A stretch of DNA of 23,577 nucleotides from a virus, in IMG/VR virus record IMGVR_UViG_3300028844_001286, positions 1-23,577 of that record, one strand, 5' to 3'. Numbering within the stretch: position 1 is the first letter of the stretch; the number at the start of each line of letters is the position of its first letter. Positions 2,129 to 20,592 of this stretch are shown piece after piece. Below the pieces are notes generated by a model. That model searched no databases, was not told where the DNA came from, and saw only the letters and a list, made by a program, of their open reading frames with translations. The position numbers were made by a program, and so were the translations under genes.

Positions 2129-2310
2129 AGCAGATCAGGCTGGAGGCGTTGAGGTTGGCGGTAGGTGAGGGCGAGCGGGAGAATACCCTGTCTCGCGCGG
2201 AAGCCTTTGTCAACTTCATCGAGAACGGCTATAGTGATAAACCCCCGGCGAGAAAGCGTCGAGTGCGAAACGCCAAACAGGAGACTGACGATGGCTCTGG
2301 CCAAACGTAA
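2125..2310 (+). CDS. Small hypothetical protein in head module
   Basis: I do not recognise this 61-aa product. It begins with an ATGA overlap on the scaffold stop, so it is probably translated by coupling. The N-terminal 35 residues look like a helix pair (RLEALRLAVGEGERENTLSRAEAFVNFIENG), followed by a basic, disordered tail (PPARKRRVRNAKQ). The pattern of a leucine/glutamate helix ending in FVNFIENG is seen in small phage proteins near capsid genes, but no function is known to me. Its last 20 bases overlap the next gene in another frame and contain that gene's ribosome-binding site. Confidence 0.6.
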   Translation: MKQIRLEALRLAVGEGERENTLSRAEAFVNFIENGYSDKPPARKRRVRNAKQETDDGSGQT

Positions 2311-2737
2311 CGCGGTAGACGACACACTTGCGCTTGTTCGCGATGTGGACAAGTTCAAGGACCGCATCGAGCAGTTGGCCAAGGCTGAACGCTCGGCCAT
2401 GAAGGTGCAGAAGAAGTCCGCCGACAAGTGCAAGGCGCTTGCCATAGAGATGGACGATATGCGCGCCGCCGCACAGCGCGAGGTCAACGACGCCCGCGCG
2501 AGAGCTAAATCCGAGATCGCCTCTATCTCTCAGGAGAAAGACGCGGTCATGGAGGAACAGGGCAAGGTTGACCGCAAGCTCAAGGCGCTGGGCAATCGCG
2601 AAGACAAACTCGCGCAGGACAAGGCTATCATGGCCAGTGAGCGCGGTATGTTGGACGACGCGGTTAAATCCTTCGACGTGAAGGTCGCCGCGTTCAACGA
2701 CGCCGTGGCTTCGGCCAGTAACATCGCCGTAGGCTAA
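2291..2737 (+). CDS. Coiled-coil protein of head module
   Basis: The product of 148 aa is almost wholly predicted coiled coil. Heptad-like K/E/A/L runs extend from about residue 15 (DVDKFKDRIEQLAKAER) to residue 125, and the ends are shorter and less charged. I chose ATG 2291 rather than an earlier in-frame ATG at 2165 because AGGAG lies 7 bases upstream (2279-2283) and the upstream codons are the out-of-frame body of the previous gene. The function is not recognisable. A second scaffold-like or head-completion role is inferred only from its place between the scaffold and the virion protein genes. The stop is followed two bases later by the next ATG. Confidence 0.72.
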   Translation: MALAKRNAVDDTLALVRDVDKFKDRIEQLAKAERSAMKVQKKSADKCKALAIEMDDMRAAAQREVNDARARAKSEIASISQEKDAVMEEQGKVDRKLKALGNREDKLAQDKAIMASERGMLDDAVKSFDVKVAAFNDAVASASNIAVG

Positions 2738-2739
2738 TC

Positions 2740-4839: not shown

Positions 4840-5017
4840 AACACTGTTGCATCTGAACCACTGTTGTATTAATGTTACATAGAGCGCGCCGGTCTATCGG
4901 CGTCGAACGGGCCACGCTGACAACCCTCACCGGCCAGCACCGGCTTCATTCGTGGCCCCGCTTCGCGGACAAGCCTTCAGCTTTTTGTTTTAACAGACAG
5001 AAGGAAGGCATAATCCA
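4840..5017 (+). promoter_or_regulatory. 178-bp intergenic region before the capsid gene
   Basis: This is the longest non-coding stretch in the module. Its left part holds a direct repeat, CACTGTTG at 4842-4849 and 4859-4866, each followed by (C/T)AT, in AT-rich sequence (TATTAATGTTACATAG to 4882). That could be a promoter or binding site, though no good -35/-10 pair is visible. Its right part holds small inverted repeats: CCGG at 4930-4933/4940-4943, GGCTT/AAGCC at 4942-4946/4971-4975 enclosing CCGC/GCGG, and AAGC/GCTT at 4971-4974/4980-4983 followed by TTTTTGTTTT. The last could be a weak terminator. A purine-rich AAGGAAGG ribosome-binding site precedes the capsid start. No gene is seen here. 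Confidence 0.4.
4842..4869 (+). repeat. Short direct repeat upstream of capsid gene
   Basis: CACTGTTGCAT and CACTGTTGTAT are spaced 17 bases start to start, with one mismatch in 11. They lie immediately after the stop of the 699-aa gene. A regulator-binding or polymerase-recognition role is a guess. Confidence 0.45.
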
Positions 5018-5884
5018 ATGTCTAACGAAATCCTCGATTGGTCAGTTATTGACTACAAATCGACGGTCGAGCATCTGCTCCAGCAGCGAGGCTCCAAGCT
5101 CCGTATGTGCGTGATGGAAGACTCCTATCACGGCAAATCCGGTGCGGCCGTCAATCAGATTGGTGCTGTCACCGCCCAGGCACGGACGACCCGACACGCC
5201 GACACACCGCTTATTGAGACACCCCATGACAAACGCTGGGTTTTTCCCACCGATTACGAGTGGGCCGATCTCATCGACAGCCAGGACAAGCTCCGCATCA
5301 TCGCCGACCCAACCTCGCCATACGCCATCAACGGCGCTATGTCCCTTGGTCGGGCAATCGACGATCTGATCATCACCGCTGCGACGGCCTCGTCGCTCAC
5401 TGGTGAAGACGGAACGACCTCAACGGCCTTCCCTGCTGCTCAGACCGCCGCAACTACCTCTGGTGGCCTCACGGTCGCCAAGCTGCGAGAAGCCATGCAG
5501 TTGCTTATCGCCGCTGAAGTCGATGTGGACAACGAGCCCCTCTACTGTGCTATCGGCGCACAGCAGCACGACGATCTGCTCGGTGAAACTCAGGCTGTCA
5601 GCCTCGACTTCACCAACAAGCCGGTCCTCGTAGACGGTCGCATAAAATCCTTTATGGGCTTCAACTTCATCGACAGCCAGCGTCTGGCGCTGTCGGGCAC
5701 AGACCGCACAGCAATCTGCTGGGCCAAGTCCGGTCTGCACCTTGGGGTCTGGGGCGATATCAACGCCCAAATCTCAGAACGCGCCGACAAATCTTATTCA
5801 ACTCAGGTCTACGTCAAAGGCACTTTCGGCGCGACGCGAGTTGAAGAGAAAAAGGTTGTCGCCATTACCTGTTCGGAGGCTTAA
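5018..5884 (+). CDS. Major capsid protein
   Basis: The 288-aa product is the shell subunit, inferred to be HK97-fold. Features seen in podovirus capsid proteins of this size are a short N-terminal arm, a RW.FPTDYEWADLIDSQDKLRIIADPTSPYAINGAMSLGRAIDD spine-helix region near residues 70-115, the LTVAKLREAMQLLIAAEVDVDNEPLYCAIGAQQHDDLL block near 150-190, and an FMGFNFIDSQRL segment near 210-225. The C-terminal VYVKGTFGATRVEEKKVVAI strand is also characteristic. It is the first gene after the only sizeable intergenic gap and has a strong AAGGAAGG ribosome-binding site, consistent with high expression. A following terminator (6358-6386) would keep this message abundant relative to downstream genes. 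Confidence 0.9.
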   Translation: MSNEILDWSVIDYKSTVEHLLQQRGSKLRMCVMEDSYHGKSGAAVNQIGAVTAQARTTRHADTPLIETPHDKRWVFPTDYEWADLIDSQDKLRIIADPTSPYAINGAMSLGRAIDDLIITAATASSLTGEDGTTSTAFPAAQTAATTSGGLTVAKLREAMQLLIAAEVDVDNEPLYCAIGAQQHDDLLGETQAVSLDFTNKPVLVDGRIKSFMGFNFIDSQRLALSGTDRTAICWAKSGLHLGVWGDINAQISERADKSYSTQVYVKGTFGATRVEEKKVVAITCSEA

Positions 5885-5886
5885 TC

Positions 5887-6351
5887 ATGGCAACTGTTTA
5901 CAGTGTCCAAAAGACCAAGTGGGACCAAAACAGTCCCACCACGAACATCAAGCCCAATGAGAACCACGGGCGAGTTCGTATGGCATACGCGCTGTATGAA
6001 CTCTCCGGGTCGGTTGTGGGCACGGTTGTGGAGATGTTCAATCTCCCCAACGGCGCTCGCATCTTGTCGGGCGAACTCACCAACGACGCGCTGGCGTCGT
6101 CCACCACAATTTCGGTGGGTCACACAGCGTATACCGACAGCTCAGGCACTGCTGTTGTGCTCGATGTTGACGAGTTCCTGGCCGCAACTGATACCTCTGG
6201 TATCGCGACCACTGATGTTGCCGCCACTTCCGCGCTCGGTAAGAACACGGTTGTGAACGCTGATCAGACCGGCATCCCGATTACGTGTGTTGTCGCTGGC
6301 GCTACCGCCACCGGCACCATCGAGTTGGTGATGTATTACGTGGTTGACTAA
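5887..6351 (+). CDS. Small head structural (decoration-like) protein
   Basis: This 154-aa protein starts two bases after the capsid stop with GGAGG upstream (5874-5878). It is beta-rich with an N-terminal arm (MATVYSVQKTKWDQNSPTTNIKPNENHGRVR) that resembles an extended capsid-gripping peptide. The core reads GTVVEMFNLPNGARILSGELTNDALASSTTISVGHT. Proteins of this size and sequence style follow the capsid gene in many podoviruses and are usually called structural or decoration proteins. The specific role is inferred from position. Shared transcript with the capsid gene and a downstream terminator suggest expression comparable to capsid. Confidence 0.65.
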   Translation: MATVYSVQKTKWDQNSPTTNIKPNENHGRVRMAYALYELSGSVVGTVVEMFNLPNGARILSGELTNDALASSTTISVGHTAYTDSSGTAVVLDVDEFLAATDTSGIATTDVAATSALGKNTVVNADQTGIPITCVVAGATATGTIELVMYYVVD

Positions 6352-6357
6352 AGTTCA

Positions 6358-6386
6358 GGGGGCGGCGCAAGTCGCCCCCCGTCTTT
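6358..6386 (+). terminator. Rho-independent-type terminator after capsid genes
   Basis: A 9-bp stem pairs 6358-6366 (GGGGGCGGC) with 6371-6379 (GTCGCCCCC), including one G-U pair, and is capped by a GCAA tetraloop of the stable GNRA class. The following tract CGTCTTT is only modestly T-rich, so partial termination (attenuation) is more likely than full. It lies 6 bases after the stop of the small head protein and 18 bases before the ribosome-binding site of the next gene, separating abundant capsid proteins from the tail module. Confidence 0.75.
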
Positions 6387-6404
6387 CCAGAATAGGAGGA
6401 CCAC

Positions 6405-6974
6405 ATGCCGACGCATGAACTGGCCTATAAAAGTATCGAAGAACTGACGGAAGACAGCAGCGCGCCAGCAGCCGGCGATTGGCTGGTCCGTTGGGACGAC
6501 AGCGCCGCTGTCGTAAAGAAGGTTGACGCCACCGATATGGTTGCGGCGCTTGGCGTCACTGCCACCGTGGCTGAACTCAACTTGGCCGCAGATAGCTCCG
6601 CCAATGTTGAGATTGTCACAGCCACCAACATCATCACCGCCGCAGAGAGCGGCAAGACGTTCTTCCTCAACAACGCTACAGGCTTCGTCAGCACCCTCCC
6701 TGCCATCGCGGCCGGGTTGCGTTTCAAGTTTGTTCTGACGACTGTTCTGTCATCCGGCAATCACACGGTCGTGACCAGCGACGCCTCGAACATCATCGAG
6801 GGTAATCTCATGGTCGCGTCAACTGTTGTGCCGGCGGTTAACGAAGACAGCATCAACTTCCTTGTCACCGACGGTGATGTTGGGGATTGGTGTGAAGTTA
6901 TCTGCGACGGCACGAGTTGGTTTCTCAGCGGTTCTGCCACCACTGCTTCTGGCATGTCCGTAACCGCCACTTAA
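6405..6974 (+). CDS. Structural protein, beta-rich
   Basis: This is a 189-aa protein with an excellent ribosome-binding site (AGGAGG at 6394-6399, 5 bases from the ATG). The N-terminal part (ELAYKSIEELTEDSSAPAAGDWLVRWDDSAAVVKKVDATDMVAALG) is the kind of leader-like segment seen in phage fibre and appendage proteins. Residues from about 65 onwards form a beta domain with GKTFFLNNATGFVSTLPAIAAGLRFKF and a terminal DGTSWFLSGSATTASG strand. This resembles small head-fibre or appendage proteins in phage capsid modules; I cannot assign it further. It is the first gene after the terminator. Confidence 0.6.
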   Translation: MPTHELAYKSIEELTEDSSAPAAGDWLVRWDDSAAVVKKVDATDMVAALGVTATVAELNLAADSSANVEIVTATNIITAAESGKTFFLNNATGFVSTLPAIAAGLRFKFVLTTVLSSGNHTVVTSDASNIIEGNLMVASTVVPAVNEDSINFLVTDGDVGDWCEVICDGTSWFLSGSATTASGMSVTAT

Positions 6975-6992
6975 CCCAAGAGCGGGGTCAAC

Positions 6993-7568
6993 ATGACCGA
7001 CTCAGTCAGTATCTGTAACCTCGCTCTACAGCGTGTGGGCGCCAAGACCATCTCCGCGCTCACCGACGACACAACCGCTGGGCGGGCCTGCAATCGTGTT
7101 TACGCGCAGGCCCGCGACAGCGAGTTGAGGGCTCACCCCTGGAGCTTCGCCCGCGGGCGAGTGCAGATCGCCGCCGACAGTGTTGACCCGGTGTTCGGGT
7201 ATGCAAAGCGGTATCTCCTGCCTTCAGATTGGTTGCGTATCCTCCCCACAAACGGTGTGGACTCTACGCCCGTTCAGGACGACTTTCAGATCGAAGGCCG
7301 GTATCTCCTGACGGATATGGCGTCGCCGATCAATCTGGTGTATATTAAGCGCGTGACCGACGAAGAGACTTTTGACTCTTTGTTCATCGAACTGCTCATC
7401 GCGCGCATCGCAGCCGACGTGTGTGAGAAGGTCACGCAGTCTAATACCAAGAAGGCTGTGGCACGGGAGCACTACATGGATATGAAGAAAGAAGCCCGCC
7501 GGGTCAACGCTTTCGAGCGTCCCCCGCAGCAGCCGCCAGAGGACGTGTGGCTGACGGCGCGTCGATAG
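6993..7568 (+). CDS. Tail tubular protein A-like (gp11-like)
   Basis: The 191-aa product fits the T7 gp11 family that forms the ring between portal and nozzle. It starts with the family-typical SVSICNLALQRVGAKTISALTDD, then residues 30-75 carry the RACNRVYAQARDSELRAHPWSFARGR motif. Next comes a YAKRYLLPSDWLRIL stretch (about residues 70-85) and a helical C-terminal region. Length is close to the roughly 200 aa of the family. It is followed directly, with no spacer, by the gp12-like gene, the standard order in podoviruses. The start ATG is preceded by AAGAGCGGGG, a weak ribosome-binding site. Confidence 0.87.
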   Translation: MTDSVSICNLALQRVGAKTISALTDDTTAGRACNRVYAQARDSELRAHPWSFARGRVQIAADSVDPVFGYAKRYLLPSDWLRILPTNGVDSTPVQDDFQIEGRYLLTDMASPINLVYIKRVTDEETFDSLFIELLIARIAADVCEKVTQSNTKKAVAREHYMDMKKEARRVNAFERPPQQPPEDVWLTARR

Positions 7569-10091
7569 ATGCCTAAAGCCAGCACCATTCAGACCAGCTT
7601 CAACGGTGGCGAACTGTCGCCGTTGCTGCATGGGCGCCCTGACCTTGATCGCTACAAGACCGGGCTGCAAAGCTGCCTGAACTTCATCCCGTTGATCCAG
7701 GGGCCGGCGGAGCGCCGCCCCGGCACACAGCACATCGTCGAGGTCAAGACCAGCAGCCTGTCTACTCGGATTATAAGGTTCGAGTTTTCGACCACTCAGG
7801 CGTATATTATCGAGTTTGGCAACCAGTATTGCCGATTTATCAAGGATACGGCCCAGATCGTCAGTGGCACACCCATAGAGCTTGTCACCACATATCTGAC
7901 CGCAGACCTGTTCGATCTTAAATACGCGCAGAGCGCGGATACGCTCTACATCACCCACCCCTCATACCCGCCGCGCAAGATCACACGCACGTCCGACACC
8001 GCGTGGACGATCACGGACATCACGTTTCAGGACGGACCGTTTCTCAACACCAACACCACGGCCACGACGTTGGGCCTGTCCGGCACAACCGGGTCGGTAA
8101 CAGTCACTGCTTCTGCCATAACTGGCATCAATTCGGACACCGGTTTCCAGACAACTGACGTTGGCCGACAGATACGCTGGGAAGACGCGGCAGGTAACTG
8201 GACCTATTTAACCATCACGGCGCGCGCCAGCACCACCAGTGTGACGGCTGACATCGACGGACCCGATGCATCGGCCACAACTGCGACGGTTGTGTGGCGC
8301 CTGGGTGTGTGGTCTGAGACTACCGGCTACCCCGCCGCAGTGACGTTCCACCAGAACAGGCTGGTATTTGCCGGGCCGACCGATAACCCGCAGCGTATTG
8401 ATATGAGCCGCACGGGTGACTTTGAGAATTTCGCGCCCACTGAGGCGGATGGCACGGTGGTTGACGATAACGGGGTGACTGACACTCTGTCGGCCGACAC
8501 GGTCAACGTGATCCGATGGTTGGCTGACGACGAAAAAGGGCTTCTGTCTGGCACGGTCGGCGGCGAGTGGGTGACGCGCTCGTCCACAGCCGGCGACGTT
8601 GTGACACCGTCCAACGTGCAGAGTAAGCGGTCGTCGGCGTTTGGCAGCGGTAATCTACAGCCCACGCGCGCGGGACGCGCTCTGCTGTTTGTCCAGCGCG
8701 CGCTGCGTAAAGTGCGCGAGATGTCCTACGTCTTTCAGGACGACGGCTTCGTGTCGCCCGACCTGACGCTGATATCAGAGCACGTCACACAAACCGGCAT
8801 TATTGATATGGCCTACCAGCCAGAGCCGCAGAGCTTGCTGTGGATGTGCCTCACAGACGGCACCCTGCTGTCGCTGACGTATGACCGGGAACAGAAGGTC
8901 GCCGGGTGGAGCCGACACGTCGTGGGGGGCACCAGCGACGCCGCTGGCACCCAAGCTAAGGTCGAGAGTGTGGCGGTCATACCTAACACGGCGGGCACGG
9001 CTGACGAGCTGTATGTGGTGGTCAAACGCTACATCAACGGCGCGACCGTCAGGTTCATTGAGTATCTGAAGCCCCACTGGTCCGACGCCAACGACAGCGA
9101 GGATGCCTTCTTTGTGGACAGCGGCCTGTCGCTGGACTCCGCGATTACCGTCACTGGTGTCACCGCTGCTGACCCCGGTGTTGTTACCGCGGCGTCGCAC
9201 AGTATCTCAGATGGCTCCGAGGTCCGGTTCACTGATGTGAAAGGTATGACACAACTCAACAAGGTGTCATACAAGATGGGGCAAAGTGCTACAAACACAT
9301 TCGAGCTTTTCGCGAACCAGCCTATCGCGCCGGTTATCACCGCGGCGACGAAGGCGAACCCGGTTGTTATCACATCGGTAGCACATGGCCTGTCTGACAG
9401 CGACGAGATTATGATCGTTGACGCGGGCGGCATGACCGAGATCAACGGGCTGGGCTTCACCGTCGCTAACAAGACCGCTGATACGTTCGAGCTTTCAGGG
9501 ATCAACGGCACCGGCTATACGACATACACATCAGGTGGCCGCATACACCACGCGGTTGACACATCGGACACCGACAACTTCAGCGCCTACGTGTCTGACG
9601 GTAAGGTCCGAGTGCGGTCCTCCACTATCTCAGGGCTGACCCATCTTGAGGGCGAGACGGTTCAGGTGTTGGCCGAGGGGGCGACGCACCCCGATGTTGT
9701 TGTGGCATCAGGTGCGGTTACACTTAACCGCAAGGCGTCGAAGGCCCACGTCGGACTGACCTACACGTCGAATTTCGAGATGCTTCGCATTGAGGCCGGC
9801 AGCGCCGACGGGACCGCGCAGGGTAAATTCCAGCGTGTCCACCATCTTGTCGTTCGATTTTGGCAAACGCTTGGCGGTGGCATTGGGCCAGATGTAAGCA
9901 ATCTCGATAATATCGTGCTTCGCGAGGGCGGCGATCCGATGGATACCGCAGTCGCCCTGTTCTCTGGCGACTACGAGACAGATTGGGACAGCGAATACGG
10001 CAATGACAACCACATATTTATTCAGCAGACACAACCGCTTCCAATGACTATCCTAGCTGTGATGCCACAACTTCATACGCAGGATAGCTGA
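7569..10091 (+). CDS. Tail tubular protein B-like (gp12-like nozzle / stabilisation protein)
   Basis: The 840-aa product is the podovirus nozzle protein that extends the tail tube. The N terminus SFNGGELSPLLHGRPDLDRYKTGLQSCLNF, followed by the GPAERRPGTQHIVEV block at residues 38-55, is a clear family signature. The central part has the HQNRLVFAGPTDNPQRIDMSRTGDFENF motif near residues 258-285 and an RKVREMSYVFQDDGF segment near 375. Residues about 529-586 and 588-657 hold two beta repeats of similar sequence (PGVVTAASHSISDG..V.. and NPVVITSVAHGLSDSDEI..), resembling FCCH-type insert domains known from phage tail proteins. Its start abuts the previous stop; its stop overlaps the next ATG (TGATG). 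Confidence 0.9.
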   Translation: MPKASTIQTSFNGGELSPLLHGRPDLDRYKTGLQSCLNFIPLIQGPAERRPGTQHIVEVKTSSLSTRIIRFEFSTTQAYIIEFGNQYCRFIKDTAQIVSGTPIELVTTYLTADLFDLKYAQSADTLYITHPSYPPRKITRTSDTAWTITDITFQDGPFLNTNTTATTLGLSGTTGSVTVTASAITGINSDTGFQTTDVGRQIRWEDAAGNWTYLTITARASTTSVTADIDGPDASATTATVVWRLGVWSETTGYPAAVTFHQNRLVFAGPTDNPQRIDMSRTGDFENFAPTEADGTVVDDNGVTDTLSADTVNVIRWLADDEKGLLSGTVGGEWVTRSSTAGDVVTPSNVQSKRSSAFGSGNLQPTRAGRALLFVQRALRKVREMSYVFQDDGFVSPDLTLISEHVTQTGIIDMAYQPEPQSLLWMCLTDGTLLSLTYDREQKVAGWSRHVVGGTSDAAGTQAKVESVAVIPNTAGTADELYVVVKRYINGATVRFIEYLKPHWSDANDSEDAFFVDSGLSLDSAITVTGVTAADPGVVTAASHSISDGSEVRFTDVKGMTQLNKVSYKMGQSATNTFELFANQPIAPVITAATKANPVVITSVAHGLSDSDEIMIVDAGGMTEINGLGFTVANKTADTFELSGINGTGYTTYTSGGRIHHAVDTSDTDNFSAYVSDGKVRVRSSTISGLTHLEGETVQVLAEGATHPDVVVASGAVTLNRKASKAHVGLTYTSNFEMLRIEAGSADGTAQGKFQRVHHLVVRFWQTLGGGIGPDVSNLDNIVLREGGDPMDTAVALFSGDYETDWDSEYGNDNHIFIQQTQPLPMTILAVMPQLHTQDS

Positions 10092-10519
10092 TGCTCACGT
10101 TCATCCCCTTCCAGGCAGCGCATTTAGCGGCGATCAAACTACAGGGCGCGCAAGGCTACCTGTCGGATTGGGTCACGTATGAACAGGCCGCTGCGCTTGT
10201 GGAACACCACAGCTCCACGGCCATGACTGACGACGGCGAGCCGGTGGCCGCGGCGGGTATTATCCCGATGTGGCAAGGCCGGTCGATGGTGTGGGCGTTT
10301 CTGTCGGACCTTGGCCCGGCCAACTTCCTGTGCGTCCACCGAGAGGTCAAACGCTTCCTCGACGGTTGCTACACCCAGCGCATCGAGATGACTGTTGATT
10401 GTGACCACAAAGAGGCGCATCGGTGGGCCGGTATGCTAGGCTTCAAACTGGAGGCCACACGTATGCGAGCCTACGCGCCAGACGGTCACGACTGTGCATT
10501 ATACGCGAGGGTATTATGA
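10091..10519 (+). CDS. gp13-like protein with GNAT-type fold
   Basis: The 142-aa product corresponds to the small GNAT-like gene (gp13 family) found between the nozzle and ejection genes of T7-like phages, where T7 gp13 is needed for normal virion morphogenesis. Visible elements of the acetyltransferase fold are the strand pair PVAAAGIIPMWQGRSMVWAFLSD near residues 50-75, the helix FLCVHREVKRFLDG, and the terminal AHRWAGMLGFKLEATRMRAYAPDGHDCALYARV segment. The canonical acetyl-CoA pyrophosphate loop (Q/RxxGxG/A) is not evident, so catalysis is doubtful. It overlaps its neighbours at both ends (TGATG and ATGA), placing it firmly in the tail-ejection operon. Confidence 0.75.
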   Translation: MLTFIPFQAAHLAAIKLQGAQGYLSDWVTYEQAAALVEHHSSTAMTDDGEPVAAAGIIPMWQGRSMVWAFLSDLGPANFLCVHREVKRFLDGCYTQRIEMTVDCDHKEAHRWAGMLGFKLEATRMRAYAPDGHDCALYARVL

Positions 10520-11010
10520 CGGGCGCTGAAGTTATGCTCGCAGTTCAGATAGCCAGTGCGGCTGCGGCGGCTGCGGGTGCTATGCAACAGGCCAAGGCTG
10601 CGTCCGACGCGGCGAACTTCAACGCTCAGGTGGCCAACAACAACGCCATCGCCACGCGCGCAGCAGCAGCCGAGAACGCCAAGCGCGAAGGTCGTGCCGG
10701 CGACAAACGCATGGGCGCCATACGCGCGCGCGGCGGCATGGACCAGATGGACCTGTTGGTTGACAGCGCGATGGAAGAAGAGCTGGGGATACAGTCGATA
10801 CTACACGCGGGTGAGCTTCAGGCTACCGGCTTCGCTAACACGGCGTTGCTGGACACAGCCAGCGCACGTAACGCTCGCGCTTCCGGCAACATAACCGCCG
10901 CCTCAACACTGCTATCCGGCGCCGCGAGCGCAGGGGGCGATTTCCTCGACCGGCAACCGGCCGGCGGCACGACACCTAGCCCATTACGCTTTGAGGGCCG
11001 CGGGCGATAA
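10516..11010 (+). CDS. Internal virion protein, gp14-like
   Basis: The 164-aa product matches the small ejection protein of podoviruses (T7 gp14 role: outer-membrane part of the ejected DNA conduit). It has an N-terminal hydrophobic alanine-rich helix (residues 6-22, MLAVQIASAAAAAAGAM), a long helix with NFNAQVANNNAIATRAAAAENAKREG, then GIQSILHAGELQATGFANTALLDTASARN and a Gly/Pro-rich tail. I chose ATG 10516, which overlaps the previous stop (ATGA). The reading frame extends 31 codons further upstream, but only inside the previous gene and with arginine-rich, non-protein-like sequence. Position directly before the gp15- and gp16-like genes supports the assignment. Confidence 0.8.
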   Translation: MTGAEVMLAVQIASAAAAAAGAMQQAKAASDAANFNAQVANNNAIATRAAAAENAKREGRAGDKRMGAIRARGGMDQMDLLVDSAMEEELGIQSILHAGELQATGFANTALLDTASARNARASGNITAASTLLSGAASAGGDFLDRQPAGGTTPSPLRFEGRGR

Positions 11011-11023
11011 GGACGAATGACGT

Positions 11024-13348
11024 ATGGCAACCTTTAGCACATATGACGCACCAGCCAACGTAACCGGGGCTGTCGGTGGGCGCCGTGCGTCTGCGGCTGA
11101 TTTCGGGCCTGACGTGTCAAGCGCGGGCGCAGGGTTGCAACAACTGGCCGAGACGCTGCGCGTTCGTGAGGATAAACGCAGCATCACCCAGGCCCGTGTT
11201 GGCCTCAACGACTTCGAGGTCGCCTTCACGGCTGATGCTCAACGTATAGCGAGTGAAGCTCCGGAGGGGGCGCCAAATCTTCCTGCCGACACCTTGGCTG
11301 AGTTTGACTCCCGCATGGCTGATTTTAACGCGGGCCTTAACAACATACAGAAGGATAGCGTGGGGCCGCGGCAAGGAGTCTTGCGGGCCGCTTTTGCTAA
11401 AAGTGCTTTAGAAACACAGGCAGCTTCTGTAGTGCGGTTGGACATAAGAAACGTTGGCAAGTTACAAATATTTCACGGCCAGCGGGTATACGGCGGGCTG
11501 GACCCCCGTGAAGCCATGGCTGAGTTTGCGGCAGATTTGAGCGACACCACGTCATCTGCTGAATTGACAGCAGCAACCTTAGAAGCTGCTGAACCAGTCT
11601 TTATAGACCAATATCTCGCCGGTATGACTGTGCGGCCCGAAGTTGGGATCGAAGCACTCGACAGTGGCATGTTAGATTGGGTGCCAGCCGACCGGCGAGA
11701 CACCTTCAGAAAGGCTTTGGAGGATCGACAAGACCACCTTGAAGCCCGCGCAGCGCGCACAGGCACCCCCGCAATACTCGCGCGTGTGGAGGGGGATGTG
11801 ACGACGTGGTTGGGCGAAACACTGCCAGGCTTAAAGGTGGATGCTGCCGCAGATGGTGAGGGTTATCCCGAGCAGGTTGCTCAGTCACTTGACGAAATGT
11901 TTGCGAAGACCACCGAGGGTATGTCCGAGATGGAACTGGCGCGCGTTCAGCCGACGCTGACACAGCGCCGACGTGAATTGATGGCCATAGCTGAAGCCCA
12001 CGCGACCACGTTAGCAACCGCCGCCACAGCGCGTGATGTAGATAGGGTCGAGCGCGCGTTGTTAGACCGCGCAGCCACCGGGCAAACGCCGCCAGAGGAG
12101 GTTAAGGCAGAATACGCAATGATGTTGGCCGCTGATAAAAAACTATCCGACGGCGAGCGAGCGAAGAAATCTGCTGCTTTTGAAGGCAAGTTGCGATCAG
12201 CCCTTATCTCGGGAATTGAGAGCCGACCAGACGCACGACAGTCGCTCATTGATTTGAATAACGGCAAGTATAACTCGGCGCTAACACAGTCTGAACGAGA
12301 TGAATTACGTCCGAAACTCGTGGCTAAAGTGGTGAAGCAGGACAAGGTCCAAAAGACCGAAGACCTGGCCAGCTGGATTATCAATTCCGGGGACGCGGCT
12401 GACCGAGTGTTTGCTGGGCGTATAGACGCCCGCGAGTTGCAGAGTATGTTCGAAGACCCTGCCGACCCGGTCCTCACTTCTTTGCTTAAAACACTGAGAC
12501 AACAGACGACACCACTCAGGACACCGGAGCAGATCGCCGTGCGCGAAGGCGAGATTTTTAATATGTATTCCGAGCTTGGGGTATCCAGAGACAACGGCCA
12601 ATATAAAACGGAAGAAGGGCTTCGGAAGTTGGCTGACTTTTATGAGTTCGCAACCCAGTCGGTCGCGGATGGTTTCGCCTCCCGCGCAGGAACGCAGAGT
12701 TACCTGAACCGCGTCCGCGCGCTGATGCCCAGCGCGCTGGAGGCGCAGGGCGGCACCGGGTGGTTGGGTGAGCACACTTTTGAGGACACACCTTTTGATC
12801 ACCTAGTATCTCAGGTCAGAAGCCAGGTCACAGTTGCGGGGTCACAAACAGCGGTTGTTGTCCGGGTGAACACCCAACTGCGCGAGGCGGAAGCAGCGGG
12901 CACCCCCATTGATCCCCAAACCATAGGCGACCTCGTTGACCAGGCGTGGCGGGCCGAGTTGGCCGATCACGGATACATAATACCGCCCGACAAACCCATA
13001 CCAACCGGCTCGATCCGCGCGACTGATGGCCGGTTGATCCACACGAATGCGGTTGGTGGTCAAGTTAAGCCACAACAGCCAAAGACAATAGACGAAGTGT
13101 CGGTAGGCACGGTGGTATACGTAGATGGCAACCCTTTTGTGAAAACTTTGGATAATAATGGTGAAGTTAAATTTGTCTATCTGACACCAGAACAGGCCGC
13201 CAAGCGCCGCGGGGAGAACCCTAATGAGCCGCCCCTCGTGCCAACAGACGCCCCCGTGGAGAACACTAATGAGCCGCCCCGCAAACCCGTGGACGTAGAG
13301 CCCAAAACCGAAGACCCGTGGCTGATTGATCCAGAGAGTGGTGCTTAA
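11024..13348 (+). CDS. Internal virion protein, gp15-like
   Basis: The 774-aa product is strongly helical and in the position of T7 gp15, an ejected internal core protein that forms the periplasmic part of the DNA conduit. T7 gp15 is about 747 aa, close to this length. The N terminus (FSTYDAPANVTGAVGGRRASAADFGPDVSSAGAGLQQLAE) is typical of such proteins: an extended arm followed by a long helix. Residues 60-600 are nearly all helix, without membrane segments. The last 110 residues are proline-rich, with a small beta domain (SVGTVVYVDGNPFVKTLDNNGEVKFVYLTPEQA) and a duplicated ENPNEPP/ENTNEPP motif. The short spacer to the next gene is 2 bases. Confidence 0.78.
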   Translation: MATFSTYDAPANVTGAVGGRRASAADFGPDVSSAGAGLQQLAETLRVREDKRSITQARVGLNDFEVAFTADAQRIASEAPEGAPNLPADTLAEFDSRMADFNAGLNNIQKDSVGPRQGVLRAAFAKSALETQAASVVRLDIRNVGKLQIFHGQRVYGGLDPREAMAEFAADLSDTTSSAELTAATLEAAEPVFIDQYLAGMTVRPEVGIEALDSGMLDWVPADRRDTFRKALEDRQDHLEARAARTGTPAILARVEGDVTTWLGETLPGLKVDAAADGEGYPEQVAQSLDEMFAKTTEGMSEMELARVQPTLTQRRRELMAIAEAHATTLATAATARDVDRVERALLDRAATGQTPPEEVKAEYAMMLAADKKLSDGERAKKSAAFEGKLRSALISGIESRPDARQSLIDLNNGKYNSALTQSERDELRPKLVAKVVKQDKVQKTEDLASWIINSGDAADRVFAGRIDARELQSMFEDPADPVLTSLLKTLRQQTTPLRTPEQIAVREGEIFNMYSELGVSRDNGQYKTEEGLRKLADFYEFATQSVADGFASRAGTQSYLNRVRALMPSALEAQGGTGWLGEHTFEDTPFDHLVSQVRSQVTVAGSQTAVVVRVNTQLREAEAAGTPIDPQTIGDLVDQAWRAELADHGYIIPPDKPIPTGSIRATDGRLIHTNAVGGQVKPQQPKTIDEVSVGTVVYVDGNPFVKTLDNNGEVKFVYLTPEQAAKRRGENPNEPPLVPTDAPVENTNEPPRKPVDVEPKTEDPWLIDPESGA
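13214..13280 (+). repeat. Direct repeat in 3' end of gp15-like gene
   Basis: Two copies of a 22-base element at 13214-13235 and 13259-13280 differ at one position and are 45 bases apart (15 codons), keeping frame. They encode the motif EN(P/T)NEPP(L/R). The repeat lies in the disordered proline-rich tail and looks like a recent in-frame duplication. Confidence 0.75.
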
Positions 13349-13350
13349 TC

Positions 13351-16300
13351 ATGGCTGAACTCGCACAGACCCTGAACGAAGAAGAAGAAGAAGAAGCACA
13401 GGCCGCCGCCGTCGCGGACATCCCACAGTCGCCTGAAGACGACACACCTACGTGGGATGGAACCGGCGAGTTTACCTACGACGAGGAACCTGTCGAGGAA
13501 CCCGCGGCTACACCTACGTGGGACGGCGGCGGCGAATTTCAACTCGAAAGCACCGAGCCCCACACAGTTGCTATGCCCGATGGACAAGTGGTCGAACTGC
13601 CGGAGGGCGGGCTGGGGCGACTTATCAACATCTTCGACAGGAGCTATGATAAGGGGTCGGCCCAGTATCAGGCGTCCGTAGTTGGCTACCAAATTCTTCA
13701 ACGTGGCGCGGCAAATGCAGACCCAAAACTTGAGGCCAGATACGCCCAACTTATGACGGAGTCGTCGGGTGTCATCCCCGCGGAGGGTTGGTGGGAGGAG
13801 AGTATCGGCGCCGCCGCCTCACAACTCCCTCAATTGTCCGCTATGGCCGGCAACATGGCCAAGCGCGGACTTGAAGGCGGGCTCGTTGGTTTGCTGACCG
13901 GCTTGATGCCGGTCGACCCAAGGAGAGTTGGAGTTAAAGGTGTGCCCACAATGGCCCGCCGGGCATTAGCAGGCGTATCGGCGGGCTCGTTGGTGGGGGG
14001 CGCGGAAAGCAACTTCTATCAAGCATCCGCAAACGCCTACATGGAGATACGTGAGATAAAAGACACCAACGGCGTTAAGGTAAACGACAAAGCAGCCCAG
14101 CTCATGGCCTACGCTGCCGGCGCCGCCAGCGCAGGGTTGGAGTTCATCCCGCTTGGCGTATTGTTCAAAATGGTCCCCGGCAGTAAGCAAATGTTTGCAA
14201 ACGCTGGCCTCCGTATGGCTGGCAGCCTGATGCTCCCGAAGACAAAAAAGGCCGCCGTTAATTTTCTCATAAATTTAAGTGCTTTGAGTGCTGCCGAGGT
14301 GAGCACCGAGGTAGCGCAGGAGGCAGTCGTCATTGGCGCGGGCGAGGTGGCAAAAATGCTGAGTCCTGAAGACAACTTTGAAAGTGTCGCCGCGAAATAC
14401 CTGTGGGATCGTTTGGCCCAAACGGCTGAAGAGGCGGCTAAGGTTACGACTATTCTCGGGCCGTTGGCTTCGGCTCCAAGATTGGCTACCGACTTTGTGA
14501 CGCCGATAGAGCTTGATGTTGTTCCTGACGATCCACAGGCTACCGCAGTGCGCCACGTCTCCATAGTCGAGGTTGACACGTTGGCCCAGAAGATCGCCGA
14601 CGCACCTATATCAGAGGACTTAGAGACCTACGATGTAGGGCCGCTGTCACCGCAGGAGCGCGAGGCTATGGAGTTTGCGGGGTTGGAAGTTACCCCCGAA
14701 GGCCAGATGCCCGCCAAAGTCGCGGAGTTGTTTGCGGGCGAGAGAGCGCGCCGCATGGCTCTACTAACTGAACGGGCTTCAGCGTCGCAGACACAGACCG
14801 AAAAGGATGAGGCATCCGCCCTGCGTAAAGTTGCCCGCGGGGCGATCCGTAAACTGGATAACACTATTAAAAATCTGGATGTTCAGGTTGACGACACACT
14901 GACGATTATCGCGGAGCGCGAGGCGCAAGGTAAGCCCGTAAAATCACAGAAGAACAAGATCAACCGACTGCTCAATGCGCGGGAGAAGCTCGACGAAGAG
15001 CGCGCCGGGCTGCTGACTGACGAAACCCCGGTGGGTGATCGGTTGAGCCAGGCTCGTCAGGCGTTGGACAACGACATCGAGTTGAAGGGCACCGAGCTAT
15101 TCAAAGCGGAACAACGTTTGCAGGTCGCGAAAGAGCGCGCGTTCAACAAAGGGTTGAAGGACGGTTCGAGATTGGCGCGCACAGATACAAAGGCGGCGCA
15201 AGAGGCCGTCATCGAGATGCTGGAGAGTGAAGCCACCGACCCTGATGTGAAGTTGCCGTCGAAGAAGCCGCGCACCAAGAAAGAAAACATTAGCAAGAAG
15301 GCCAAGCGCAAAGAGGGCCGACTGTTTAAGTTGAGCGACACAGCCAAGGCCAAGTTTATCAAGCGGCTCAAGAACGTGCAGGGCGCCGAGCAGTTCAACA
15401 AGGTTATGGACGACCTTCAGTCCGCTATTAACGTCGCTGTAACAAAGGAGCGGCGCAAGGTTGCCTTGAAGAAGCTGGACAAAGAATTGAGGTCGTCCGG
15501 CGTCAAAAAACGCAAGGGTAGGTTTGGCCCCGAGGCCCAGGCCGACCTGGACGGTATGGCTAAAAACTACCTGAACATGACCGCGGAGAAGGCACGGGAG
15601 GCGCTGGCTAAACTACCGCCGCAAAAAACCTCGCATGAACGATTGATAAAAGGGATGTTGACCTTACGGGCGGACCCTGAGTCTTTCAGCGCCCAGCAGA
15701 TCGAGGACATATTACTGCGCGTCATCCAGACAAAAGCCGAGGGTAGACAGAGCATGAAGGACGGCCGCAGCAGGGCGGATAAGCAGGTTGACGACACAAA
15801 AGCCGAGCTTTTGGACCAGATGGGCGAGGGGAGGGACGAGTCGGACAAAGGCCGTAATATTCGAGAGTTCTTCGCTGCGGTTGAAGTAGTCTCGTTTTTG
15901 GGGTTGAGCGGGTCGTGGCGCGTCAAGATGCGGCGCATACTTAGAACGTCTGACGGCTCTCGCGCACAGGCGCTTATAGACAAGCTGGGATTGTTCGCAG
16001 AAACGCGAGTGTTCAACGCCGGTAAGGTCGACATGACGCAAAAGTTCAGCGATATGGCAACCGCTGCGCTGGGGCTTGGATCGGAGCGCCAGTTGCGGAA
16101 GAAGCTCGCCAAAGACGAGGTAGAAAAATTAAATCTAGGTAAGTTCAGACATGAAAATGGTGAGTTCAAAACACTGGACGTGAGAACCCGCGCGCAAGCC
16201 CGAGCGCGGGTGATGCAGATGCGCGATCCAGACTTGGAGAAGAGCTACCGCGATGCAAAGGGTAACGGCTACACGGATGATATAATAGCCGCCATAGAGG

Positions 16301-17838
16301 GCGCGCTGGACGAGTCGGATTACCAGTTGATCGAGGTGCAGGTGGAGTTTTACGAAGCCTACTACGAGCGCATTAACCAAGTATATGAACGGATGAATGG
16401 CTTCTCGCTGCCAAAACTCGTGCAATATAGCCCGATACGGCGCGAGAACGTGGATTTTGTCCAGAACGAGTTTTTTGAGTCTATACATTACCAAGGTTCT
16501 GTCGCACCGGGCAGCCTCAAGTCGCGTGAACCTAGTGTCCGGCGCACAGTTTCCACGGGCGACTTTACCACTCTTCAATCTCACATCATGGAGATGGAAT
16601 ACTATATTGCGTATGCCGAGAAGGTCCAGTTTATCTCCAGTGTTATGCGGTCGCCCGAAGTGCAGAACCGCATCGACGACGTGTTCGGCAAGATGATACG
16701 GACTACAATAAATCAGGACTTGGACTTCTTCCAAAGGAAAGGAGGCCGAGACTCGTGGGCTGTGGAGAAGCTGAGTGCAACGCTGTTGAGAAACTTTACG
16801 TTCGCGCAGCTTGGGTTCAAACCGCAGATTGGATTGAAACAGTTGGCGTCGATGTCGATATACGCGCAGGACGTTAGCACGGTGGATTTCGTCCTCGGGA
16901 TGGCGGAGTTTGCCAAAAACCCCCGCGCCGCGCTGAAAGTCTTGGCCGAGAGTGAGCAGTTCGCTACTCGGGGTATGAACATAGACAAGGACTTCGAGGC
17001 TCTTCTGAGCGACAAATCAATGCTGAACCTAGTCGGTAAGAACCCTGGTCTTGCCAAGGTTATCATGGTTCCCATTCGGTATGGCGATAAGGGGGCTATC
17101 GCTCTCGGTGGTTACGCGCACTACCACGCCATGATGAAGAAGAACGGCGGCAACCACAAGGCTGCGCTCGACTCGTTCGACCGCATGACCGTTGATACTC
17201 AGCAGTCAAACGATATTGACCAACTGTCTGTGCTCCAACGGTCCAGCCCGTTGCTGCGTGTCCTGTCGCAGTTTATGTCTTCAGCCAACGCCTTGGCCCG
17301 CTCTGAGTATAGCGCCGTGCTCGATATGAGATCGAAGCGTATAAACAAAAGAGAATTTGCCAAGCGGCTGTTCATCCTGCATTTCCTTATACCCAACACC
17401 ATACAGTATATAGCTAACGGGTTTACTTGGGACACCGAAGACCAATTGAGAGCCTCGCTAGTGGGGGCGCTCAACGGCGTGTTTGTCTTCGGTGACTTGG
17501 TTGATGCGGCGGCGCGGTTCGCTACGGGTGGAGTAGAAGATGTCAACGATATCGGGGTGCGCCACCAGTTTGAGTTCTTCGAGGATATTGTAAAACTTAT
17601 GGAAGAGTTGACCGACGACGACATCAGCTTCGAGGATTGGGAGGACGCCATGCGCGTATTAGACCCTGCGGGTAACGTGGTTGGCGCGTTAACGGGCATC
17701 CCGTTAACCACCGTAATCAACGAGTTCCGGGGCTTAACGGATATCGGGCGCACCAGACGTGAAGGTGACGCGCGAGCCGCCGGTATGCGTATACTGGGCT
17801 ACGCGGACTTCGCCGTTAAAAAGGTGCAGGAAAGATAA
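13351..17838 (+). CDS. Large internal virion (ejection) protein, gp16-like
   Basis: At 1495 aa this is the largest gene and takes the place of T7 gp16 (about 1318 aa), which spans the inner membrane during DNA ejection. Residues 1-65 are acidic (E10-E15 run) with a duplicated PTWDGxGEF motif at 33 and 55. Residues 165-360 hold several glycine/alanine-rich hydrophobic helices (GLEGGLVGLLTGLMP, ALAGVSAGSLVGGAES, LMAYAAGAASAGLEFIPLGVLFKMV) and an AEVSTEVAQEAVVIGAGEV segment, plausible membrane-inserting elements. Residues 455-860 are charged coiled coil with a Lys/Arg-rich patch near 640-670. The C-terminal third (FKPQIGLKQLASMSIYAQD, SSPLLRVLSQFMSSANALA) resembles C termini of large phage polyvalent or ejection proteins. 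Unlike T7 gp16, I see no N-terminal lytic transglycosylase motif. Confidence 0.8.
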   Translation: MAELAQTLNEEEEEEAQAAAVADIPQSPEDDTPTWDGTGEFTYDEEPVEEPAATPTWDGGGEFQLESTEPHTVAMPDGQVVELPEGGLGRLINIFDRSYDKGSAQYQASVVGYQILQRGAANADPKLEARYAQLMTESSGVIPAEGWWEESIGAAASQLPQLSAMAGNMAKRGLEGGLVGLLTGLMPVDPRRVGVKGVPTMARRALAGVSAGSLVGGAESNFYQASANAYMEIREIKDTNGVKVNDKAAQLMAYAAGAASAGLEFIPLGVLFKMVPGSKQMFANAGLRMAGSLMLPKTKKAAVNFLINLSALSAAEVSTEVAQEAVVIGAGEVAKMLSPEDNFESVAAKYLWDRLAQTAEEAAKVTTILGPLASAPRLATDFVTPIELDVVPDDPQATAVRHVSIVEVDTLAQKIADAPISEDLETYDVGPLSPQEREAMEFAGLEVTPEGQMPAKVAELFAGERARRMALLTERASASQTQTEKDEASALRKVARGAIRKLDNTIKNLDVQVDDTLTIIAEREAQGKPVKSQKNKINRLLNAREKLDEERAGLLTDETPVGDRLSQARQALDNDIELKGTELFKAEQRLQVAKERAFNKGLKDGSRLARTDTKAAQEAVIEMLESEATDPDVKLPSKKPRTKKENISKKAKRKEGRLFKLSDTAKAKFIKRLKNVQGAEQFNKVMDDLQSAINVAVTKERRKVALKKLDKELRSSGVKKRKGRFGPEAQADLDGMAKNYLNMTAEKAREALAKLPPQKTSHERLIKGMLTLRADPESFSAQQIEDILLRVIQTKAEGRQSMKDGRSRADKQVDDTKAELLDQMGEGRDESDKGRNIREFFAAVEVVSFLGLSGSWRVKMRRILRTSDGSRAQALIDKLGLFAETRVFNAGKVDMTQKFSDMATAALGLGSERQLRKKLAKDEVEKLNLGKFRHENGEFKTLDVRTRAQARARVMQMRDPDLEKSYRDAKGNGYTDDIIAAIEGALDESDYQLIEVQVEFYEAYYERINQVYERMNGFSLPKLVQYSPIRRENVDFVQNEFFESIHYQGSVAPGSLKSREPSVRRTVSTGDFTTLQSHIMEMEYYIAYAEKVQFISSVMRSPEVQNRIDDVFGKMIRTTINQDLDFFQRKGGRDSWAVEKLSATLLRNFTFAQLGFKPQIGLKQLASMSIYAQDVSTVDFVLGMAEFAKNPRAALKVLAESEQFATRGMNIDKDFEALLSDKSMLNLVGKNPGLAKVIMVPIRYGDKGAIALGGYAHYHAMMKKNGGNHKAALDSFDRMTVDTQQSNDIDQLSVLQRSSPLLRVLSQFMSSANALARSEYSAVLDMRSKRINKREFAKRLFILHFLIPNTIQYIANGFTWDTEDQLRASLVGALNGVFVFGDLVDAAARFATGGVEDVNDIGVRHQFEFFEDIVKLMEELTDDDISFEDWEDAMRVLDPAGNVVGALTGIPLTTVINEFRGLTDIGRTRREGDARAAGMRILGYADFAVKKVQER
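13444..13523 (+). repeat. Duplicated PTWDG coding motif
   Basis: ACACCTACGTGGGA occurs identically at 13444-13457 and 13510-13523, 66 bases apart (22 codons), encoding the repeated TPTWDGxGEF motif in the acidic N terminus of the gp16-like protein. Confidence 0.75.
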
Positions 17839-17850
17839 GGTGCTGGATCA

Positions 17851-17898
17851 ATGACCGCCATTCGTGGTAAGCTTAGACAACCGCAAGGAAGTGTGTAA
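17851..17898 (+). CDS. 15-codon mini-ORF upstream of tail fibre gene
   Basis: ATG 17851 opens a 15-residue frame, MTAIRGKLRQPQGSV, whose stop TAA ends exactly one base before the fibre ATG at 17899. AAGG lies 10 bases upstream (17837-17840), an acceptable but distant ribosome-binding site. The fibre's own AAGGAAG site is at 17885-17891, inside this mini-ORF, so its translation would pass over it and could couple or tune fibre expression. The sequence (xIxGKLxxPxGS) also looks like the first strand of small fibre N-terminal domains, so it may be a vestige of a lost gene. Chance is a real alternative. Confidence 0.3.
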   Translation: MTAIRGKLRQPQGSV

Positions 17899-19482
17899 AT
17901 GACTGTCACTACAACCACGACCCGCACAAGCTCTGCCGGCGACGGTATCGTTACGGCGTTCAGCTTCCCATACAAGTTCTTTGCGAACGATGATCTAACC
18001 GTAATCCTCGTGGTGGACGCCACCAACGTGGAGACGACGCAGACCATCACGACAGAATATACCGTGGCGGGTGCCGGCGTAGAAGCCGGCGGCACCGTCA
18101 CGATGGTGACAGCTCCAGCGTCAGGTGAGACGCTGGTGATCTTGCGCGAGGAGCAGTTCACACAGGGGCTTGACCTGGTCGAGAACGATCCGTTCCCCTC
18201 CGCGCTGGTCGAACAGCAATTAGACACGCTGACCATGTTGGCGCAGCAGACCGACACACAGGTTGGCCGCTCACTCAGGTTTGTTGAGGGTTATACCGGT
18301 AGCGTCGATCCTCGTATGCCCGCGCCTGTAGCCGGCGCGTTTCTAACGTGGAACTCCACGGGCACTGCCGTCACAACATCTACGGACACCGCTACCCAAT
18401 GGCTAGGGGGTAACGGCACAGAAAGTCTGCCGTATTACTCCTTCACCTCAGACCCAAATTCGGGGTTCTACCGGGTTGGCGCAGACAATATTGGTCTGAC
18501 ACTTGGTGGGACTAAGCGCGTTGATTTTGGTGCCGCGACTACAGGGTTCACGGGCGAAGTAACCGCCACGGGTTTCACCGGCACGTTGGACGGCACGCTG
18601 GGTGGAGGGACACCCGCCGCAGCCACCGTCACAAACCTGACATCGGGCGGCAATATTGTCTCAGATACAGACAGCACAGACGATCTCGGGACAACCGGGG
18701 TTCGGTGGCGCAAACTGTGGGTTGACGACATCCAGACGACGGCTGACGCGGACATAGCGGGCGATCTTACAGTCACCGGCAATCTTACGATTAACGGCAC
18801 AACGGTCACAAACGACGCCACGAACACAGTAATCAAAGACCCCTTGATCGAGTTAAACACCGGGGCCGCCAGTAATGCCAATGACCTCGGGCTCGTCATG
18901 GAGCGCGGCTCTACCGGTAATAATGCCTTTATGGGCTGGGATGAAAGCGCCGACAAGTTCGCGTTTGGCACCACCACAGCCACTGGCTCTTCGACCGGGA
19001 ACATCACCTACGCTGACGCGCAGATTCTCGCAGAGGGCGCGACATTCTCCGGCACCTCTTCAGACTTGGGAACCGTCACGACCGTTGACATCAACGGTGG
19101 CACGGTGGACGGTGCGGTGATCGGCGGAGCGGCGGCTGCGGCGATAACGGGCACCACGATAACCGCCAGCACATCTCTCGCTCTAGCATCCGGCGCGACG
19201 ATCACGGGTTTCGCTGACGAGGACACGATGTCCTCCGATAGCGCCACGCTTGGCGTCACACAACAGAGCGCCAAGGCGTATGTGGACTCAAGCGTCAAAG
19301 CCCCAGGCGTTCAGATGCTGTGGGAAACCACGACCACTGACACTGATCAGGGCGCAGGCAAGGTGTGGGCGAACAACGCCACGCTGGCGAGCGCCACGGT
19401 ATTGTATTTTGATGATGACGTCGGCGAGCACATACTCCAAGGTGGCAGTGACCCATGTGGCCACGTTTGGGACTTTGGTTGA
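17899..19482 (+). CDS. Tail fibre protein, N-terminal part (frame-broken)
   Basis: This frame encodes 527 aa. Residues 1-135 form a T7 gp17-type fibre N-terminal domain that attaches to the tail: GDGIVTAFSFPYKFFANDDLTVILVV, a TVTMVTAPASGETLVILREE strand, then DPFPSALVEQQLDTLTMLAQQ. The shaft contains motifs frequent in phage fibres: YYSFTSDPNSGFYRVGADNIG near 175-195, GDLTVTGNLTINGTTV near 289-305, and DPLIELNTGAASNANDLGLVMERG..NAFMGWDESADKFAF near 315-350. The frame ends abnormally at 19480-19482 soon after VLYFDDDVGEHI, while fibre-like sequence continues in the +1 frame. The shift point appears to lie near 19420-19445. As it stands, the product lacks the receptor-binding tip encoded downstream. 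Confidence 0.85.
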   Translation: MTVTTTTTRTSSAGDGIVTAFSFPYKFFANDDLTVILVVDATNVETTQTITTEYTVAGAGVEAGGTVTMVTAPASGETLVILREEQFTQGLDLVENDPFPSALVEQQLDTLTMLAQQTDTQVGRSLRFVEGYTGSVDPRMPAPVAGAFLTWNSTGTAVTTSTDTATQWLGGNGTESLPYYSFTSDPNSGFYRVGADNIGLTLGGTKRVDFGAATTGFTGEVTATGFTGTLDGTLGGGTPAAATVTNLTSGGNIVSDTDSTDDLGTTGVRWRKLWVDDIQTTADADIAGDLTVTGNLTINGTTVTNDATNTVIKDPLIELNTGAASNANDLGLVMERGSTGNNAFMGWDESADKFAFGTTTATGSSTGNITYADAQILAEGATFSGTSSDLGTVTTVDINGGTVDGAVIGGAAAAAITGTTITASTSLALASGATITGFADEDTMSSDSATLGVTQQSAKAYVDSSVKAPGVQMLWETTTTDTDQGAGKVWANNATLASATVLYFDDDVGEHILQGGSDPCGHVWDFG

Positions 19483-20251
19483 TGGCGATACCATTGGCGT
19501 CATCTTTTCATTCTCTGGGGATAATGGTGCTGGCACTGGAGATGTGTCTGGCCCGGCGTCTGCGACGGATAGTGCCATCGCGCTGTTCGATGGTGCTGAC
19601 GGCAAAACGCTCAAAGATTCCACCTACACAATTACGGCGGCGGGCGCAGCCCTGTTGGACGACGCGACAGCGGCTGACCAGCGCACGACCTTGGGTGCAG
19701 CCGCGTCAGGGTCAAACTCCGACATCACCGCGCTGACCGGTCTGACCACTGATCTATCGGTGGCGCAGGGCGGCACGGGGGCATCAACCCATACTGCCAA
19801 TAGCGTTCTGGTAGGTGCTGGCACATCAGCGATCACATCTGTGGCCCCATCGACCAGCGGCAACGTCCTGACATCTAATGGGACATCGTGGACCTCTGCT
19901 GCGGCTGGGGGTATTTTTTCCGCTGAATACATATCGACGGGGCAGACCTTTACGGCTGATAGTGTTTTGACACTGGCACATAGTCTGGGTGCGAGGCCTT
20001 CTGTTGTAGAGCTTTGGCTAAAGTGTGGAACCGCAGACAAGGGTTATGCCATCGGGGACTTCATCAGCTACCCGCAGGACACGGCAGGGATTGATGCTGG
20101 CTTCGTCCTTCAGGTGGACGGAACGAATATCGAGTTGATCACAGGGTCAAACATACGAGCATTGGACCAGTCCACATTTAATGAGGTTAGCCTCACAACA
20201 TCGAGCTGGACCATTTACGTGGTCGCGTATCTCGGAGGGACGGTAAGCTAA
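19412..20251 (+). CDS. Tail fibre protein, C-terminal part in shifted frame
   Basis: This frame continues the fibre. From about 19430 it reads TYSKVAVTHVATFGTLVDGDTIGVIFSFSGDNG, then the shaft motif GTGDVSGPASATDSAIALFDGADGKTLKDS common in phage fibres, TTLGAAASGSNSDITALTGL, and SVAQGGTGASTHTANSVLVG. A final 110-residue beta domain (LTLAHSLGARPSVVELWLKCGTADKGYAIGDF) is probably the receptor-binding tip. ATG 19412 is simply the first ATG nearby; a better re-initiation site may be GTG 19448, with AAGG five bases upstream. Without re-initiation or repair this part is untranslated. I treat it as the 3' half of one broken gene; whether it is expressed is unknown. Stop overlaps the next start (TAATG). 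Confidence 0.75.
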   Translation: MMTSASTYSKVAVTHVATFGTLVDGDTIGVIFSFSGDNGAGTGDVSGPASATDSAIALFDGADGKTLKDSTYTITAAGAALLDDATAADQRTTLGAAASGSNSDITALTGLTTDLSVAQGGTGASTHTANSVLVGAGTSAITSVAPSTSGNVLTSNGTSWTSAAAGGIFSAEYISTGQTFTADSVLTLAHSLGARPSVVELWLKCGTADKGYAIGDFISYPQDTAGIDAGFVLQVDGTNIELITGSNIRALDQSTFNEVSLTTSSWTIYVVAYLGGTVS

Positions 20252-20592
20252 TGGTTGAAGTCACAAAACATTACCGGGACGAGCACGGTAACCATATCGG
20301 AGCCTTTGTATTCTCCGGTGTTGGGCAGCATCCAGATGTCCCCGCAGGGGCGATAGAGTGTCCCGCACCTCCAAGCGGAAAAGCTAAATGGGTTAATGGG
20401 GAGTGGGATTATACACCGCCTTACGACCCTGTTAGAATGAGAATGTATGAGGAAGCCGGCATCACTGATGCTGGCCGCATTGATGCCTTGTGGGACGCAA
20501 TCATGGAAACTGATACTACTAAAGCTGACGCATTAAAGGTGGCACGCGATGCCGTCCGTGCTGATCCTCTCTTTCCAGTAAAGGCAGTCTAA
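20251..20592 (+). CDS. Small tail-fibre-associated protein
   Basis: The 113-aa protein begins with a phage fibre-accessory pattern: HYRDEHGNHIGAFVFSG..PDVPAGAIECPAPP, then KAKWVNGEWDY near residues 45-55. The second half is helical (DAGRIDALWDAIMETDTTKADALKVARDAVRADPLFP). Similar layout occurs in small proteins encoded directly after tail fibre genes, where some act as assembly chaperones. I infer an association with the fibre but not a mechanism. A strong GGAGGG site lies about 12 bases upstream. TAATG overlaps at both ends tie it to its neighbours. Confidence 0.55.
   Translation: MVEVTKHYRDEHGNHIGAFVFSGVGQHPDVPAGAIECPAPPSGKAKWVNGEWDYTPPYDPVRMRMYEEAGITDAGRIDALWDAIMETDTTKADALKVARDAVRADPLFPVKAV

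Follow-up and report, generated by a model that had tools for sequence, protein, structure and literature searches.

A tail-fiber gene in the window (the whole stretch of DNA analyzed here, a virus record of 23,577 bases) runs in two reading frames. The first extends from 17899 to the D-D codons that end at 19416, and the second resumes at 19418 (T-S-A-S-T-Y-S), leaving 1 base between them. The locus raises the question of whether the gene is broken, whether such a break would lie in the DNA of the phage or in the contig, and whether a fiber spread over two frames could instead be the design of the gene.

The window and its fiber gene

The genome appears to be that of a T7-like podophage (HTVC010P-type), a group in which both gene order and family matches place it. 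Family matches were obtained for the portal (head-tail adaptor in PHROGs), major head protein, tail protein B, fiber, lysozyme, and exonuclease; the presumed genes for scaffold, tail tubular A, and internal virion proteins take their names from position. The fiber gene comes after the portal, the major head protein gene, the tail tubular genes, and the presumed internal virion genes, as does the fiber gene of a T7-like podophage, and the N terminus of its product is a tail-attachment domain that matches phrog_1640 over residues 1 to 128 (E value, 1.4e-27) and phrog_13893 over residues 1 to 126. The best-ranked matches of tail tubular B come from Pelagibacter phages with 45 to 47% identity (HTVC035P, HTVC010P, and others), and a DNA search of isolate phages returned no match. 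No positive sign of a prophage emerged: the window is itself a virus record, and one scan of genome contigs with the first open reading frame (ORF1, 17899 to 19482, 527 amino acids, stop at 19480 to 19482) yielded 3 partial relatives with 44 to 67% identity, all of them in metagenome-assembled genomes.

Two frames meet at 19417/19418

The features of the locus are as follows.

17899..19416, plus strand: tail-fiber N-terminal part in the start frame, with the tail-protein N-terminal domain (residues 1 to 128), shaft, and first half of a beta-rich domain (ORF; phrog_1640, E value of 1.4e-27; relatives to residue 506)
19417..19418, plus strand: joint, at which approximately 137 bases of the relatives (140 versus the next subtype), not a multiple of three, are absent (alignment and domain-pair counts)
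19417..19482, plus strand: out-of-frame tail of ORF1, 21 residues, with the premature stop at 19480 to 19482 (ORF list)
19418..20251, plus strand: remaining fiber in the other frame, with the second half-domain, shaft, and C-terminal part; stop at 20249 to 20251 (ORF; match to contig L002 over residues 1 to 269; stop scan)
20251..20592, plus strand: next gene, the ATG of which overlaps the terminal stop of the fiber (TAATG) (ORF list)

In a DNA alignment with 11 relatives, the window reads ...TTTGATGATG through 19417 and then immediately ACGTCGGCGAGCACATACTCC from 19418; where its GATGATG abuts the latter, the relatives have D-D-V codons, approximately 45 further codons, and mostly V-T-S-A-S-T-Y-S. 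An earlier note on this DNA had placed the change of frame near 19425 to 19430. The frame switch that it described exists, but its actual place is 19417/19418, so that the third D and the residues VGEH are already in the wrong frame. Its main claim, that an internal out-of-frame loss has broken the fiber gene, is confirmed, as two frames meet at the joint and the relatives are read in one.

The second frame continues without a stop as far as 20251. None was met in 276 codons scanned, whereas the two remaining frames have 10 and 16, and the chance of none is approximately 3e-5 by an independent-base estimate. The gene at 20251 to 20592 is without a match in Pfam (E values up to 1) and in PHROGs (E values up to 0.1); since its ATG overlaps the fiber stop, its translation may be coupled to that of the fiber. 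If it is coupled, the premature fiber stop would uncouple this gene (TAATG at 20249 to 20253).

Homologous domain copies give the size of the loss

Comparison with homologous copies of the beta-rich domain shows that bases are missing from the window relative to all relatives examined. The 213 other loci listed include 85 with paired domain copies; in each of the 130 distinct pairs, 129 to 147 bases lie between the two points at which the window has 1. Every length is a multiple of three (129, n = 2; 135, n = 1; 138, n = 50; 141, n = 61; 144, n = 14; 147, n = 2), and no copy is out of frame or contains a stop (0/130). A pair was counted if both half-domains matched at E values up to 0.01 with near-flush ends, a rule that set aside 14 distinct unpaired first halves and 2 unpaired second halves; 1 of the 14 lies near a contig end, and the other 13 stay open for at least 60 codons, with no break seen. 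With other landmarks, 29 of 101 loci gave a total of 42 pairs (35 distinct), not counting 5 loci that show one landmark only; all 42 are in one frame and have gaps of 138 to 153 bases, versus 10 in the window. The upstream and downstream halves of the domain share a single ORF in all 29 of these loci, and the N terminus belongs to the same ORF wherever it is present (24/24). The single continuous frame to the tip that is expected of such a fiber is thus kept across the domain in 29 of 29 loci and is interrupted in the window by the stop at 19480 to 19482.

Because the commonest lengths are 141 and 138, the loss amounts to approximately 140 or 137 bases; L002 and L029, which are closest to the window in the residues that precede the joint, have 138, which puts the absent stretch at approximately 137. 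The earlier note had proposed, from other fibers with this domain, that a middle segment of 40 to 50 residues was missing, which is right (approximately 46 residues by the relatives), and had suggested looking for homologues with 110 to 150 additional nucleotides at this point; when this check was run, the relatives proved to carry 129 to 147 bases versus 1.

Consequences for the protein

The missing stretch is the middle of the beta-rich domain, corresponding to approximately residues 71 to 116 of the relative L029. In a model of the intact L029 domain (16 sequences), residues 31 to 150 are predicted in blocks with mean pLDDT values of 67 to 90, whereas both ends are below 50; the lost residues include a short helix, a complete strand, and the greater part of a second strand, and five strands flank the gap. 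From this model, we infer that the cut domain would be unable to fold normally. The model has a mean pLDDT of 66.8 and both of its ends are poor, so no fold is named; a fold search with the intact L029 domain gave no PDB match at E values up to 0.001 (0/365), and the domain has no Pfam match above the cut-off.

The ORF1 product would retain the N-terminal attachment domain and shaft, followed by 21 wrong residues and a stop, and would lose the remainder of the domain and the tip. The claim that the stop at 19480 to 19482 removes the shaft end and tip holds, as the ORF1 product would end 21 residues past the joint. In 11 of the 29 loci (some of them near-duplicate contigs), the fiber ends 58 to 76 residues past the start of the second half-domain while the domain is whole, indicating that short fibers exist in the family.

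Origin of the loss

We consider it somewhat probable, and the likeliest cause, that this podophage fiber gene lacks approximately 137 bases out of frame through a misjoin and not in the DNA of the phage. The bases would have dropped out while a mixture of strains was amplified or assembled, and the phage DNA itself would be whole; both halves of the fiber gene are open, as one would expect of a gene that is intact in the phage. The sibling contig IMGVR_UViG_3300028829_001884 (L103), the only contig of the same species found among the matches listed, favors a misjoin over a genuinely defective phage or a variant of altered host range, as it carries two other out-of-frame indels. The sibling is 98.8% identical in DNA to the window over 1 to 18148 (158 differences, two gaps), and the differences are clustered in patches amid nearly identical kilobases. 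One of its indels is a 49-base loss in tail tubular B (window position 8825), leaving ORFs of 419 and 389 residues versus 840 in the window; the other is an 8-base tandem duplication at 13639, near the start of a long late gene (13351 to 17838). The window is intact at both sites. The 49-base loss is at the edge of a diverged patch: the 168 bases on its left contain 23 differences and the 230 bases on its right 0, with scattered ones again beyond. In our view, misjoins in a strain mixture account more readily than separate deleterious mutations for two contigs of one species with breaks in different late genes; the indels of the sibling might themselves be real.

Assemblies also tend to break in this gene, as the sibling stops at fiber residue 83 and L024, the best DNA match to the fiber of the window (82%; 86% protein identity), ends before the joint at residue 387. 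In a long-read virome paper (PMC6487183), HTVC010P-type phages are described as microdiverse, which fragments their short-read assemblies, and as sharing an island bounded by tail-fiber proteins; the same paper documents fragmentation, not misjoins, and reports no chimerism in its own mock assemblies. No contig of the same population spanning the joint was among the matches listed for ORF1, ORF2, the long late gene, the downstream exonuclease, the domain alignment, and the L002 domain, including the best 80 of 233 for ORF1 and the best 80 of at least 508 for the domain alignment. An exact scan found the 28-base junction sequence in no other viral contig searched, a set from which records near the genome of the window may be omitted.

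A recent illegitimate deletion in the fiber gene of a real genome, defective or of altered host range and abundant enough to assemble, is a serious possibility, though we would stop short of calling it probable. The sequences on the left and right of the joint are compatible with a single parent domain of one subtype. When the two sides were compared ungapped with 13 relatives, L002 and L029 ranked top on the left (37/40 and 35/40; 93 and 88%) and, by a narrow margin, on the right (31/38 and 32/40; 83 and 81%), where L022 and L035 equal L029 when counted ungapped. Separate donors are not indicated by this comparison, with which a simple deletion within a single genome agrees equally well. A chimera of two domain subtypes at the joint was considered and not seen, L002 and L029 being top on both sides; over longer pieces, BLAST identity to L002 drops from 86 to 63%. 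The alignment of the relatives allows approximately two bases of microhomology at most, and such a near-blunt join, as in illegitimate recombination, is not the mark of k-mer collapse and counts against a misjoin. The loss may also have occurred between direct repeats; none flanking the joint is reported in the window, in which one copy would vanish with the deletion. The short fibers of the family are also in line with a real deletion, but the domain is whole in all 29 of those loci and in 130 of 130 paired copies, and the unrelated breaks of the sibling suggest a common technical cause. Moreover, since the large late genes of the window are open and the downstream frame has no further stop, a real event would have to be recent, which counts against it. 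If real, the deletion would be an ordinary loss-of-function or host-range mutation, yielding particles with tipless fibers that are non-infective or dependent on intact kin.

That the fiber is made from two ORFs by design, through a programmed frameshift or bypass or through an internal start for the second frame, seems very improbable. The downstream frame is open, and a GTG codon at 19457 has AAGGTGG upstream (19439 to 19445), but this SD-like stretch is the K-V of S-K-V-A-V, which is kept in most relatives, so no other reason is needed for its presence. The GenBank record of HTVC010P also splits fiber sequence over two CDS in different frames, but there the split lies between whole domain copies. 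Recoding would leave the absence of approximately 46 domain residues unexplained, and no relative examined has a two-ORF layout inside the domain (0/29 loci, 0/130 paired copies), which makes a programmed shift unlikely; this candidate was rejected. These two observations support the view of the earlier note that an out-of-frame deletion and not a programmed shift is present, and the check for homologues that share the two-ORF arrangement, also suggested there, found none in the 29 loci. We give scant credence to a split that is real and used, with a short tipless fiber and a separate C-terminal piece made from an internal start, whether as a two-piece fiber or as a truncated form that persists in the population and changes its host range. 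A sequencing error of one base, without any further loss, would give two frames too and is hardly conceivable, being refuted by the alignments, in which relatives have 129 to 147 bases and the window 1.

Implications

The gene is broken in an ordinary manner, probably through a fault of the contig; an assembly fault or a dead variant is most likely, and not a new mechanism. As a caution, the fiber should not be recorded in databases as one that is short by nature, nor should host range be inferred from it, and frame breaks in fiber or virion genes should be backed by reads when they occur in contigs of microdiverse viruses.

Comparison with related fibers and known faulty joints

The fiber N terminus of Caudoviricetes sp. 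MW202898 is 54% identical to residues 1 to 149 of the window fiber, and those of 12 Pelagibacter phages are 34 to 38% identical; the named kin fibers are those of the Pelagibacter podophages HTVC010P, HTVC034P, HTVC035P, and Skadi. Tail tubular B of MW202898 matches that of the window with 53% identity over 74%, a shorter match but a closer one than those of the Pelagibacter phages, among which HTVC010P has 46% identity over 90%.

Six IMG/VR contigs (L002, L022, L027, L028, L029, and L035) have single-copy fibers with the same domain subtype and order as the window and are 71 to 86% identical to it in protein over the 70 residues before the joint, but their frame is unbroken, with 147 bases between the outer landmarks versus 10 in the window. 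Elsewhere the copy number of the beta-rich domain varies, with two to four or more recognizable tandem copies in L085, L087, L089, L090, L095, L097, and L116. Beyond the domain, the C-terminal parts of the fibers look to be exchanged as modules (window 19418 to 20251 versus L002 to L021). The last 114 residues of the window are matched by L002 only, among the loci tested, and 14 of the 20 loci match just 49 to 79 residues, within residues 80 to 162 of the second frame.

Faulty joints in contigs of microdiverse viral populations resemble the present case in the two frame-breaking indels of the sibling, one of them at the edge of a diverged patch, and differ from it in that no donor switch across the joint of the window could be shown.

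In HTVC010P (L116, KC465898.1; 2641 to 4513, corresponding to 16666 to 18538 of the record), the fiber is annotated as two CDS in different frames (16666 to 18012 and 18002 to 18538). The break lies in a collagen-like stretch, with a one-base length difference from L085, L087, L089, and L090, which read through, and it may reflect either a sequencing slip or a genuine change of frame. As annotated, this split is a separate matter, which shows that frame breaks in these fiber genes also stand in the record of an isolate. HTVC010P, which is not among the 13 records matched by the N terminus, has three copies of the same beta-rich domain, all whole, and its frame is split between copies, whereas the window has one copy and is broken inside it.
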